Below are positions 1 through 58,347 of a DNA stretch of 64,000 nt, piece after piece. Origin of the DNA: Pelosinus fermentans JBW45. Its GTDB lineage: Bacteria; Bacillota; Negativicutes; DSM-13327. The notes under the pieces are model-generated. The model saw nothing but the letters and a program-made list of their open reading frames with translations. It made no database searches and was not told where the DNA came from. Both the position numbers and the translations under genes were made by a program. The first letter of the stretch is position 1. Each line of letters starts with the position of its first letter. Where the stretch lies: NCBI RefSeq assembly GCF_000271665.2, contig NZ_CP010978.1:2386501-2450500 (forward strand), in the 5' to 3' direction.

Positions 1-308
1 CTGATTCTCGCTGGAGAAAGACCGAGGATATGTTTAAGGAATTACCGATATTACAAATGGCTATTTTAAAAAGTGCTGCGGAATGCGTAAAATTGGGTGG
101 CACCTTAGTATATAGTACTTGTACAACTGAGCCGGAAGAAAACCAAGATGTTGTTAACAATTTTTTGAAGGGAAATCCGGATTTTGCCTTGCAGCATGCC
201 GGGGAAATGTTTCCAGTTACAGAAAATAAGGCTGAGATGGTGCAGTTATGGCCACATATTGATCATGTAGATGGATTTTTCATTTCTCGTTTAGTGCGAG
301 TGAAATAG
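1..308 (+). CDS. rsmB: 16S rRNA m5C967 methyltransferase RsmB, C-terminal part (5' end outside window)
   Basis: The reading frame is already open at the window edge and ends at the TAG at 306-308, so only about the last 100 residues are present. They contain the Rossmann-fold end of an m5C RNA methyltransferase. The RWRK segment is followed by a helix and then LVYSTCTTEPEEN, in which the Cys of STCT is the family's conserved TC-type cysteine. RsmB methylates C967 of 16S rRNA using S-adenosylmethionine. In many Firmicutes the gene sits, as here, directly before rlmN and the phosphatase/kinase genes. Only 10 bases separate it from rlmN, which suggests a shared transcript. Confidence 0.85.
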   Translation, partial: DSRWRKTEDMFKELPILQMAILKSAAECVKLGGTLVYSTCTTEPEENQDVVNNFLKGNPDFALQHAGEMFPVTENKAEMVQLWPHIDHVDGFFISRLVRVK

Positions 309-14012: not shown

Positions 14013-14888
14013 ATGGGTGACCATATTACAAGGGCAACTATAGTGGGTGGAGTGCGGGCTTTTGCCGCGGTGACTACAACCCTAGTAGAAGAGGCTAGAA
14101 AACGCCATGATTGTTATCCGGTAGCAGCTGCTGCTCTAGGGCGGACTATGACTGGAGCTCTATTATTAGCTGCAAATCTTAAAACAGATGAGAGCATTAC
14201 AATAAAAATTAGTGGAGATGGTCCTCTAGGTGAGGTTGTTACTGATGCTCATGCTAATGGAAGCGTTCGTGGGTATGTTAAAAATCCACATGCCCACTTA
14301 CCCTTACGAGAGGGGAAGTTAGATGTTGGTCATGCTGTTGGTAAGGGGCAGATATCTGTTACTCGATTTACAGGTTTAAAGCAGCCTTTTACAGGTAGTG
14401 CAGAATTAGTGAGTGGTGAAATAGCTGAAGATATTACTAATTACTTATATGTATCAGAGCAAACTCCGTCAACAGTAGCTTTAGGTGTTTTAGTGCAGCC
14501 AGATATGATTGTTACTGCGGCTGGAGGATTTATGGTACAAGCGTTACCTAATGCTGATGATGAGGTTTTAAGTAAAATTGAAAAAAATATAGCTTTATTA
14601 CCACCCATTTCCCAATTGATAAGCGAGGGATTAGATGCAGCTGGTATCATAAATCGAATCTTTACTGGCTTATCAGTTACCATTTATGAAGAAGTTCCTT
14701 TGGAATTTAAATGTACTTGTTCCTTGGAAAAGGTGCAGAAAGTGCTGGTTAGTCTTGGTGTAGAAGAGATCAACGATATTTTAGTTGAGGATGGAGAAGC
14801 TGAAGTTTGTTGCCCTTTTTGTAGTGCTAAATATCAATTTAATAAAAGTAATCTAGAAGAAATAATCGACATAATTGAAAAACAATAG
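14013..14888 (+). CDS. hslO: Redox-regulated chaperone Hsp33
   Basis: 291 residues. The N-terminal substrate-binding domain is followed by a C-terminal redox switch with the zinc cysteines CTC (about 235-237) and CPFC (about 268-271). It becomes a holdase when these cysteines oxidise. GGGGGG precedes the ATG. A strong hairpin follows the gene at 14901. Confidence 0.95.
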   Translation: MGDHITRATIVGGVRAFAAVTTTLVEEARKRHDCYPVAAAALGRTMTGALLLAANLKTDESITIKISGDGPLGEVVTDAHANGSVRGYVKNPHAHLPLREGKLDVGHAVGKGQISVTRFTGLKQPFTGSAELVSGEIAEDITNYLYVSEQTPSTVALGVLVQPDMIVTAAGGFMVQALPNADDEVLSKIEKNIALLPPISQLISEGLDAAGIINRIFTGLSVTIYEEVPLEFKCTCSLEKVQKVLVSLGVEEINDILVEDGEAEVCCPFCSAKYQFNKSNLEEIIDIIEKQ

Positions 14889-14900
14889 AAAGACTGGGTT

Positions 14901-14956
14901 ATACAATGAAAAAAGGTACTTTATGCTTTGCGTAAAGTACCTTTTTTCATTGTATA
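14901..14956. terminator. Bidirectional terminator between hslO and the convergent small gene
   Basis: A perfect inverted repeat of 23 bases (ATACAATGAAAAAAGGTACT and on into the loop, mirrored at 14934-14956) surrounds a nine-base loop. Runs of T on either strand near its ends let it stop transcripts from both sides. Confidence 0.8.
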
Positions 14957-14987
14957 AATTAGATTTCCTAAAGAAATTTTAAAAATA

Positions 14988-15104
14988 TCAACAAGAGGAA
15001 AAATCATCAGATGAACAGCAGAAAAATAACAAAATGATGATGATGATAATAATAGACCAATTACCACCACAGCCGTTGCCATTACCTCCAAACCCGAAGC
15101 CCAT
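14988..15104 (-). CDS. 38-residue Gly/Ile/Cys-rich membrane peptide, copy 1
   Basis: This short gene encodes a glycine- and asparagine-rich head (MGFGFGGNGNGCGG), a hydrophobic run with seven isoleucines (about 17-28), and a CC...DD..SSC tail. AGGAGGA (TCCTCCT at 15111-15117 on the + strand) is placed normally before the ATG. A paralogue of identical length lies at 57564, with 26 of 38 positions identical by hand alignment. The layout recalls tiny YjcZ-like sporulation peptides of Bacillus (Gly head, single membrane segment, Cys end), but family membership is not shown. The promoter at 15145 suggests mother-cell expression during sporulation. Confidence 0.8.
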   Translation of the reverse strand: MGFGFGGNGNGCGGNWSIIIIIIILLFFCCSSDDFSSC

Positions 15105-15144
15105 AATTATTCCTCCTTTTTTCATGCGTAGTCTTGTGACTTAC

Positions 15145-15174
15145 TACATTGTATGCTTACTAGGCGGAGTAGGT
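15145..15174 (-). promoter_or_regulatory. SigK/SigE-like sporulation promoter of small peptide copy 1
   Basis: Reading the minus strand, AC is followed by 17 bases and CATACAATGTA. This matches the SigK pattern (AC, 16-17 bases, CATAnnnTA) in all but one base, and the SigE -10 box CATACAAT exactly. The -10 box is about 40 bases before the ATG. Confidence 0.6.
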
Positions 15175-15323
15175 GATAATTCAACAAATAATCTTAGTTA
15201 AAGGAAAGCAACATTTATTTGTTTTTCCTTCTTAAGATATTCCCAAGCGACATTAGGTATGTGTGCAGGAGTTTATAACTTCTCGCCGAATTTTGTACAT
15301 ACAAATTTAGAAGGAAGAGAGAG

Positions 15324-18680: not shown

Positions 18681-18694
18681 TGAATATCAGATAC

Positions 18695-18724
18695 ACCAAT
18701 GCCTCTATCGTAGCATACAATATA
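18695..18724 (+). promoter_or_regulatory. SigK/SigE-like sporulation promoter of the SpoVM-like peptide
   Basis: AC at 18695-18696, 17 bases, then CATACAATATA at 18714-18724. This fits SigK (AC, 16-17, CATAnnnTA) and contains the SigE -10 box CATACAAT. In Bacillus spoVM is transcribed in the mother cell by SigE. The two small Cys-rich peptide genes in this window carry the same pattern. Confidence 0.6.
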
Positions 18725-18771
18725 AATATATAATGTGTGTATCATGTTAAGTAATGAGGGAGGCGAACGCG

Positions 18772-18852
18772 GTGAAACCTTTAAAAATCTATGTTATGTC
18801 AGTACCTAAGCCACTGCGTAAAATTATGCAGCTGTTTTGTAAAAGTTCGTAA
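18772..18852 (+). CDS. spoVM: SpoVM-like 26-residue peptide
   Basis: A 26-residue basic, amphipathic peptide (MKPLKIYVMSVPKPLRKIMQ, then LFCKSS) starts at a GTG with GGGAGG eight bases upstream and is followed by a terminator. It has exactly the length of Bacillus SpoVM. With a three-residue offset the pattern K-x-Y-x-x-x-(L/V)-P-K-x-L-x-x-I can be aligned to it, including the functionally important Pro of the Bacillus peptide. SpoVM binds the convex forespore membrane and anchors SpoIVA. The assignment is inference from length, pattern, promoter and a spore-forming host; a different sporulation peptide cannot be excluded. Confidence 0.6.
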   Translation: MKPLKIYVMSVPKPLRKIMQLFCKSS

Positions 18853-57492: not shown

Positions 57493-57528
57493 CAAAAAAA
57501 TAAACCACGTCTTGGTGGAACGTGGTTG
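57493..57528 (-). terminator. Terminator of small peptide copy 2
   Basis: On the minus strand AACCACGT and ACGTGGTT close a hairpin followed by TATTTTTTTGCC, about 35 bases after the stop codon. Confidence 0.75.
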
Positions 57529-57563: not shown

Positions 57564-57680
57564 TTAACAACTAGAAGAACAATCGTCATTGCAGCAGAAA
57601 AATAATAAGAGGATAATTATGATAATAATACAGCCGGAACCGCCAAAGCCATTGCGGCCGCCTCCAAAACCTAGGCCCAT
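57564..57680 (-). CDS. 38-residue Gly/Ile/Cys-rich membrane peptide, copy 2
   Basis: It has the same length and layout as the peptide at 14988: head MGLGFGGGRNGFGG, six isoleucines then leucines and phenylalanines, and tail CCNDDCSSSC. The ATG at 57680 is set by AAGGAGGG on the minus strand (57687-57694); the frame is open further up but without a second site. It has its own promoter (57708) and terminator (57493), so it is a complete single-gene unit. A spore-associated membrane or coat peptide is inferred from the promoter and composition. Confidence 0.85.
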   Translation of the reverse strand: MGLGFGGGRNGFGGSGCIIIIIILLLFFCCNDDCSSSC

Positions 57681-57707
57681 ATGTATCCCTCCTTTATCGT
57701 CGATTAA

Positions 57708-57737
57708 TATATTGTATGATAGATAAATAGAAGAGGT
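57708..57737 (-). promoter_or_regulatory. SigK/SigE-like sporulation promoter of small peptide copy 2
   Basis: On the minus strand AC, 17 bases, then CATACAATATA. This satisfies the SigK pattern AC-N16/17-CATAnnnTA fully. The ATG follows 27 bases after the -10 box. Confidence 0.65.
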
Positions 57738-58347
57738 GAGTATCAAGTAGCGGTAATTATTGACAAAAATAGAGCTAGGGGCTGATCTAAAACTACTTTA
57801 AATTAGCCCTTAATATTATAAAGAACCACCGATTAGTAGATGAGAGGGAGAGTGCAAGCCTAATGGCTCCTTAGACGACAATCTCGCCTAAGTTGTGATC
57901 TACATGCTTGTCCGTGCAAACAATTACTTCACGTACGAGTTGCTTAACCAATGCTCCGTTTGTTTTCATACGTAACTTCACCTGAGATTTTTCCTTTTAA
58001 ATCATTTTTAAAGGTATAATAACGTCCTTTTTGCTATTAACTTCATTATTATTCGTAAGAAGGACGTTATTTTATTCTTTATGGCGGTCTTCGAGAGCAA
58101 CTCGTTCATTGATAATTTTAAAAAAGCTGATCTTCAACATCTTTAGCGGTTATAAGTTGTTTTCTATAGGAAATTATGAATGGAATGTTTTTCTGTATCC
58201 TTTTGGGTATTTGCTGATAGTCAGGTGGACAAGATACCTATCCGAGTGATGGCGCAGAAGTAGTGATGTGTAGGCTGGTTTTAGAAATAAATAGGCGGGA
58301 GTGAATCATATACGGTTTTCAGTTATTCTGTAAAATAAAAGGAAGGT
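57738..58347. other. Gap with remnants and inverted repeats
   Basis: No intact gene. On the minus strand 57871-57966 could encode KTNGALVKQLVREVIVCTDK and a short tail, which resembles the C-terminal end of a large serine recombinase and may be a relic. AACGTCCTT (58021-58029) and AAGGACGTT (58060-58068) form an inverted repeat with outward T-runs. The rest is not recognisable. Confidence 0.35.

Follow-up and report, generated by a model that had tools for sequence, protein, structure and literature searches.

Do two very small genes of Pelosinus fermentans JBW45, both specifying a glycine-rich head, an isoleucine core and an acidic, cysteine-bearing tail, encode spore peptides, and are they the only ones of their kind in that genome? 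They lie in the 64,000-nucleotide stretch of DNA analysed here (the window), gene 1 at 14988..15104 and gene 2 at 57564..57680 (stop codons included), on the minus strand in both cases, a fact left unstated in the original prediction, which was made from the letters alone. Each gene starts with ATG and specifies 38 amino acids (MGFGFGGNGNGCGGNWSIIIIIIILLFFCCSSDDFSSC and MGLGFGGGRNGFGGSGCIIIIIILLLFFCCNDDCSSSC, respectively). Alignment confirmed that 26 of the 38 columns are identical, as had been counted by hand (E 1.7e-8), and every element of the predicted layout is found in the translations: a Gly-rich head, seven Ile followed by LLFFCC in peptide 1 and six followed by LLLFFCC in peptide 2, and an acidic Ser/Cys tail. 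Peptide 1 contains neither Lys nor Arg.

The expression signals claimed for the two genes were largely retrieved. Both are preceded by strong, AAGGAGG-type ribosome-binding sites, with the GGAGG read from the sequence at 15112..15116 and 57688..57692 (minus strand). Downstream of gene 2, a hairpin scan and folding agree on an intrinsic terminator with a 9-bp stem and a T-rich tail (57503..57527, minus strand). Gene 1 and hsp33 (14013-14888, plus strand; identified by its Hsp33 match) converge tail-to-tail, and the long palindrome at 14899..14957, with A/T runs on either side and a stem of 25 pairs (-33.2 kcal/mol; z -12.4), forms a terminator common to both; the simple terminator scan missed it, and it was seen by folding. 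The claim that each gene has its own promoter stands only for one type of promoter. Scans for sigma-70 sites returned two near gene 1, both on the opposite strand (shuffle mean 2.3, sd 1.3), and four near gene 2 (shuffle mean 2.1, sd 1.5), with just one of these on the strand of the gene (57766-57739, 9/12 bases); because these counts are no higher than chance, sigma-70 promoters were rejected. Judged by the family statistics given below, both genes have a putative sigma-K-type promoter on the minus strand: CACC-16-CATACAATG at 15147..15175 for gene 1, where the last base deviates from the consensus CATAnnnTA, and CACC-16-CATACAATA at 57710..57738 for gene 2, a complete match. Computation thus supports that genes 1 and 2 are single-gene transcription units.

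The word “pair” in the original prediction proved wrong. The Pelosinus genome, a single contig of 5.38 Mb, contains 13 matching places (two form a tandem, separated by about 0.27 kb), and all 13 score E ≤ 2.1e-12 with a profile of the family. “Unlinked” understates what is a dispersed multi-copy family: six copies occur inside some 175 kb around the window (2.40-2.58 Mb). Some of the copies align mutually over up to 965 bp, which indicates that they spread by local or segmental duplication. Across 200 genomes of the class Negativicutes searched with the profile, the number of copies per genome goes up to 14.

From the Pelosinus genome and sporulating relatives, we assembled 166 distinct ATG-started members of 31-49 amino acids (median 37). 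The scan excluded 36 loci (L043; L069-L097; L104; L106-L110), and one of 167 unique matches, L174, was removed (TTG start, 20.3 bits). All 166 can be anchored at the first LL after the I/V run. Ile occupies the five positions preceding LL in 93, 96, 97, 99 and 100% of the members (to be anchored, a member must have I, V or L there, and the LL is fixed); then follow L/F, F/C, F/C and C/F, an acidic stretch of D, N or E, Ser/Thr and, often, a final Cys. The head averages 14.5 residues with Gly the commonest, next to Phe, Ser, Asn, Cys, Arg and Trp. The hydrophobic core has a mode of 15 residues and measures 13-16 in 151 members. Most members (145 of the 166) carry a net charge of -1 or -2. Basic residues are scarce: Lys occurs three times in the entire set, 162 members have neither Lys nor Arg in the core or after it, and 28, including peptide 1, lack them altogether. 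Cys is present at least once in 164 members and beyond residue 20 in 129; it is absent altogether from two, and 37 have none past residue 20. One subgroup of neighbouring copies (L171, L153, L036/L068, L099) has MARGF or MGR heads and Cys-poor tails of the LLFFFEDD type and may represent another building block within the family.

Very short, Gly-rich and poly-Ile frames invite the suspicion that they are low-complexity or repeat sequences from which no peptide is made, and the segmental duplications of up to 965 bp amongst Pelosinus copies could be taken in the same sense. The codons speak otherwise. The Ile positions draw on all three codons (ATT 473, ATC 438, ATA 179), and each of the 45 close pairs, equal in length and differing at 5-22% of nucleotides, has a dN/dS below 1 (median 0.12). 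The close pairs are under purifying selection, and the mixed Ile codons together with the low dN/dS indicate that selection keeps the amino acids, not a DNA repeat. Moreover, GGAGG occurs within 20 nt of the start in 145 of the 166 members, and a hairpin with a T-run follows 68 of them (mononucleotide-shuffle mean 1.6, max 5). Given also the promoter motif retained in otherwise dissimilar upstream sequences (below), we consider a chance or non-coding origin practically negligible; it is already contradicted by the dN/dS values and the phyletic results. The similarity of the two window peptides is well beyond chance, as evident from its E-value, the 166 members and dN/dS.

When are these genes transcribed? 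We compared the 120-nt upstream sequences of the 166 members, all of sufficient length, reduced to 132 by dropping those with more than 25% of their 8-mers in common with an earlier one. CATAnnnTA is found in 94 of the 132 (mean 9.9 and max 18 in 200 dinucleotide shuffles) and in 4 of 56 control ORFs of at least 130 aa from the window; gene 1 (CATACAATG) is amongst the 38 upstream sequences that lack it. The full motif, mACm-15..17-CATAnnnTA, occurs in 45 of the 132 (shuffle mean 0.34, max 3) and in none of the 56 controls. Most of the CATAnnnTA sites (65/98) sit 45-59 nt before the start codon. When 93 sequences were aligned on the -10 alone (one site each, 30-90 nt before the start, with the 24 nt preceding), a second element emerged, G(72%)T(76%)A(60%)[A 58/G 30]C(86%)[A 45/C 47], the last base of which is 16 nt before CATA. 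The -35 dinucleotide [AG]C is present in 75 of the 93 aligned sites, with AC at spacer 16 in 49, and the ATA of a sigma-E -35 element is found in none of the 93 at spacers of 15-18. In Clostridioides difficile, sigma-E and sigma-K promoters are described as sharing the -10 element and differing at the -35, ATA versus AC, and the late, mother-cell-specific sigma-K is described with a regulon that includes coat genes (PMC3789822); for sigma-K of Bacillus subtilis, a distance of 15 ± 1 bp between the 5-base and 10-base elements is given (PMC517825). Read against the C. difficile criteria, the presence of AC and the absence of ATA at the -35 indicate that the family promoter is of the late mother-cell, sigma-K type. 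We also note that the family -35 is extended, GTA[AG]C[AC]AA (93 sites; e.g., L020, L030, L032 and L152), and longer than the plain AC set out in PMC3789822. Both the promoter type and the 13 copies go beyond what was originally proposed, and a sporulation-type promoter, which formed no part of that proposal, lends independent support to the spore-peptide reading.

The phyletic distribution bears directly on the same point. With a single peptide as the query (E ≤ 0.01), 27 of 60 genomes including Pelosinus match, while SpoIVA occurs in 30 of the 60. Three genomes of this set (G004, G037, G043) have the peptide without SpoIVA, all three with SpoIIR, and six of the 30 SpoIVA genomes remained unmatched. 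Since the single query underestimated the family, a profile of 32 members was run on 200 genomes of the class with a completeness of 90% or more (E ≤ 0.01). Five of the six missed SpoIVA genomes were thereby searched again and all match (G011, G013 and G025 at ≤ 5e-9, G014 at 3.8e-5 and G032 at 1.3e-4), although the scores of G014 and G032 are no clearer than that of the non-sporulator G083 (8.7e-5); the sixth, G027 (87% complete), was left out of the profile search.

In all, the profile matches 49 of the 200 genomes. SpoIVA exceeds its cut-off in 40 of the 200, and all 40 are amongst the 49, so that 40/40 stands against 9/160 (Fisher p 1.0e-33, uncorrected for relatedness: whole families sporulate, and independent events are fewer). 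Two of the other nine, G037 and G043, give strong matches and have SpoIIR; counting them as sporulators yields 42/42 against 7/158 (Fisher p 2.8e-36), a grouping set after the matches had been seen. The SpoIIR search covered 13 selected genomes, two of which were picked because they are peptide-positive, and a sporulator with neither SpoIVA in its assembly nor the peptide would escape, for which reason 40/40 is the unbiased count. The remaining seven are weak single matches (E 8.7e-5 to 0.008) in genomes without SpoIVA over the cut-off or SpoIIR. Three of them are segments of frames of 556, 559 and 287 residues; those in G075 and G083, two genomes of one genus, lie within 89-residue frames in which Gly precedes hydrophobic residues, with no LL and with a basic tail; the last two are short frames without the family layout. 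All seven look like chance matches, a remote relative being conceivable for the piece in G075 and G083. In the wider phylum, 29 of 299 genomes match, Pelosinus included, with a best E of 2.8e-6 outside the class; amongst 28 loci that we read (L069-L096, of which L094 is in the class), about 22 are by eye short Gly-head peptides, mostly with mixed hydrophobic cores, and the rest are chance-like. The family is thus specific to the sporulating genomes of the class and absent from their non-sporulating relatives, save for weak, chance-like matches: the profile finds it in the 40 SpoIVA genomes and the two SpoIIR genomes, as against seven weak matches in 158 others.

Small, hydrophobic, Cys-containing, multi-copy peptides might instead act on membranes, as the toxin of a toxin-antitoxin system, a holin-like protein, a bacteriocin or a sporulation killing factor, and one profile row does give a weak match with a daptide model (E 0.54). 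Seven ORFs adjoining the window genes were scanned: four correspond to a metallophosphoesterase, Hsp33, an M42 peptidase and PFOR, three have no Pfam match, and no export or immunity gene was recognised amongst the seven. Each window gene furthermore has its own promoter and terminator, and the distribution follows sporulation with purifying selection on the peptide. We regard such a membrane-active role as highly improbable.

The window also holds a 26-aa ORF, MKPLKIYVMSVPKPLRKIMQLFCKSS, at 18772-18849 on the plus strand (18694-18849 with its promoter). It starts with GTG and is preceded by a ribosome-binding site and a CACC-16-CATACAATA promoter at 18694, with a 16-base spacer. We take it to resemble SpoVM in length and pattern; it has no match in NCBIfam, Pfam or PDB. 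Matches to it occur in 32 of 60 genomes, namely all 30 with SpoIVA plus the SpoIIR-positive G037 and G043; G004, an 83%-complete assembly with SpoIIR and the main peptide and no SpoIVA, is without it.

The gene for sigma-K itself is interrupted in Pelosinus. TIGR02846 (sigK) is over its cut-off in two of seven genomes and gives split matches in G000, G002 and G066; G057 and G075 are without SpoIVA. Pelosinus sigK (G000:C1:2226609-2235744; L188, L207) is in three pieces, and each of the two intervening elements encodes a large serine recombinase. The N-terminal part (2226609-2227028) is followed by a first element, about 6.2 kb long, whose 517-aa recombinase has Resolvase and Recombinase domains, the middle part (2233254 to about 2233399) by a second element of 2.3 kb with a second recombinase, and the last 21 or so codons lie at 2235682-2235744. 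The two elements are skin-like and arranged in series, and short repeats of the GTCTCG..TATTGAGAA type occur at the ends of the second. No paper on skin elements in Negativicutes came up in the open-access literature searched. In G002 (L189:9025-9219; G002:C1:2231626-2231733), the 3′ part of sigK is without the second interruption and a family peptide is found about 0.6 kb beyond. In G066 (L190; G066:C12:164563-184944), the sigK halves are some 20 kb apart, with two family peptides between them.

Some other ORFs near peptide copies deserve mention. Two His/Cys-rich ORFs of the CPKCHHECEKDWHKCPKC type (L193:2781-3047, 88 aa; L194:2762-2983, 73 aa) converge on peptide copies, and a 137-aa ORF with CWPQQGC repeats (L003:2312-2722) lies behind another. 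The L193 and L003 ORFs have no Pfam match, and by eye there is no CATAnnnTA just upstream of the L193, L194 and L003 ORFs; we consider them candidate spore-surface proteins.

Is the family already known under another name? No Pfam or NCBIfam model fits the scanned members (32 profile rows; best E 0.0054 for NCBIfam and 0.0013 for Pfam), and no description was recognised in the open-access literature searched. The closest likeness is that noted in the original prediction, which held the peptides distinct from YjcZ. YjcZ proteins are tiny, with a Gly-rich head and one hydrophobic core, and the 166 members, of 31-49 aa with a Gly-rich head and a single I/L/V core, are equal in size and architecture. 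YjcZ_2 is not known to have an acidic Cys tail, and the Negativicute peptides differ from it by the Ile-run/LL core and the acidic Ser/Cys tail. They also go undetected by PF09680: this model is silent in the Pelosinus genome (E ≤ 10) and surpasses its curated Pfam cut-off of 21 bits in none of the 200 class genomes, where the peptides occur throughout the sporulating ones. Sub-threshold PF09680 matches (E ≤ 1; best 0.0027) are seen in 38 of the 200, of which 34 are without SpoIVA; the model is over its cut-off in one of 14 control genomes, by list position presumably B. subtilis. The peptides are therefore similar in kind to YjcZ and are not recognised members of that family by the PF09680 model, as the original prediction had it.

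They could nonetheless be divergent YjcZ proteins that share descent with those of Bacilli and Clostridia, in which case the Ile core and the Cys tail would be gains of the Negativicute branch. The common architecture would fit such a history, as would the sigma-K link, a predicted promoter type here and a place in the sigma-K regulon for B. subtilis yjcZ (PMC517825), and the several paralogues, with at least five YjcZ-family genes described for one B. cereus strain; sORFdb describes the YjcZ family as membrane-associated. A possible bridge is provided by weak matches outside the class, which include Gly-head peptides with FILFLILILLFFGDN-type cores (L071, L072, L075, L077, L080). These are likewise small, with a short hydrophobic core, and differ in that the core mixes Phe, Leu and Ile, a Cys tail is mostly missing and the profile score is weak (E 8.8e-6 to 0.0016). 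The silence of PF09680 speaks against common descent, and short low-complexity sequences can converge; on balance, we rate it a real possibility of about one chance in three. In other classes of the phylum, we further observed tiny Gly-head peptides with FILFLILILLFF-type cores (L071, L072, L075, L077, L080, L086, L090), candidates for kin or look-alikes of YjcZ.

Other systems are more distant. CotY/ExsY-type proteins are much larger and Cys-rich. With these coat and exosporium proteins (PMC9562818), the likeness that we propose is a Cys cross-linked outer spore layer under mother-cell control; the Pfam and NCBIfam scans of the peptides named no CotY/ExsY. TatA/TatE proteins, with an amphipathic helix after the core, have a similarly short N-terminal hydrophobic segment and gave weak matches for 9 of the 32 rows (best E 0.0054, TIGR01411); identity was rejected since the score is not significant, there is no room for the amphipathic helix and the peptides are far too short. 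Orthoreovirus p10 appeared for 21 of the 32 rows at E ≤ 1 (best 0.0013) and was rejected as a composition match, both window peptides being below the cut-off, as were TatA and other viral membrane-protein matches; for every row after the first, the TatA and p10 scans gave E-values without cut-offs.

Taken together, we estimate at roughly 0.65 the probability that both window genes belong to a multi-copy family of spore-envelope micro-proteins of 31-49 residues, transcribed by sigma-K late in the mother cell. The peptides are probably structural micro-proteins of the spore coat or the outer spore membrane. The phyletic and PF09680 tests support the predicted undescribed family of spore-membrane or coat peptides, the location itself being inferred. 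In the course of events that we envisage, sigma-K RNA polymerase would transcribe the copies late in the mother cell, many of them at once; indeed, the many copies, their common promoter type and the strong ribosome-binding sites point to bulk production. The peptides would settle at the outer forespore membrane or coat, where the Ile-run/LL/(L,F)(F,C) core may insert in or pack against the membrane, or stack with its own copies, the Gly-rich head and the acidic tail remaining at surfaces. Upon lysis of the mother cell, disulfides could cross-link the peptides and thereby fix them in an insoluble layer of the envelope. Such oxidative cross-linking is suggested by the Cys residues in 164 of the 166 members, and the Cys-free members and those with Cys-poor tails indicate that it is not obligatory for every copy.

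How the core is accommodated is a separate question. At 13-16 residues, it is short for a bilayer-spanning helix. Conceivably, it forms a beta-strand, with Ile runs stacked as a steric zipper into a cross-beta sheet of the coat or exosporium, locked by the Cys tails. Ile at 93-100% before LL is stricter than hydrophobicity needs (the anchor restricts these positions to I, V or L), and Val and Leu codons, one base away from Ile codons, are rare at these positions; a core of mainly 13-16 residues would agree, as would copy numbers of up to 14 in a genome, which suit a structural protein made in bulk. AlphaFold2, run on two sequences only, predicts a single helix (15-35) at low confidence (mean pLDDT 60.9), which would argue against a strand, although our reading does not build on this model. 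We offer the zipper as a tentative proposal. In its widest form, the micro-protein reading would have every sporulating Negativicute build an envelope layer from multi-copy peptides of about 37 residues, polymerised through the Ile-run/LL core and locked by Cys, a generalisation that we hold to be speculative and rather doubtful.

In our judgement, little is known about the proteins that cover the spores of outer-membrane bacteria. Gene callers can easily skip a gene of some 117 bp whose product is of low complexity. As of the data of a 2012 survey of sporulation genes, no spore-forming Negativicute had been completely sequenced. The family is unnamed, with no fitting Pfam or NCBIfam model for the members scanned. 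In the 162 members that have no Lys or Arg in the core or after it, trypsin would leave a long hydrophobic piece, and this predicted resistance may explain why proteomics has missed the peptides. Its presence in 42 of 42 sporulators of the profile search makes the family a sporulation marker for the class, and its upstream sequences supply many sigma-K-type promoters in which the extended -35 is clear. The peptides are a testable candidate for a main structural component. If the wider reading is true, the polymer of Ile-run/LL cores would amount to a bulk material peculiar to the spores of diderm sporeformers, forming a peptide layer nearly invisible to standard tryptic proteomics.
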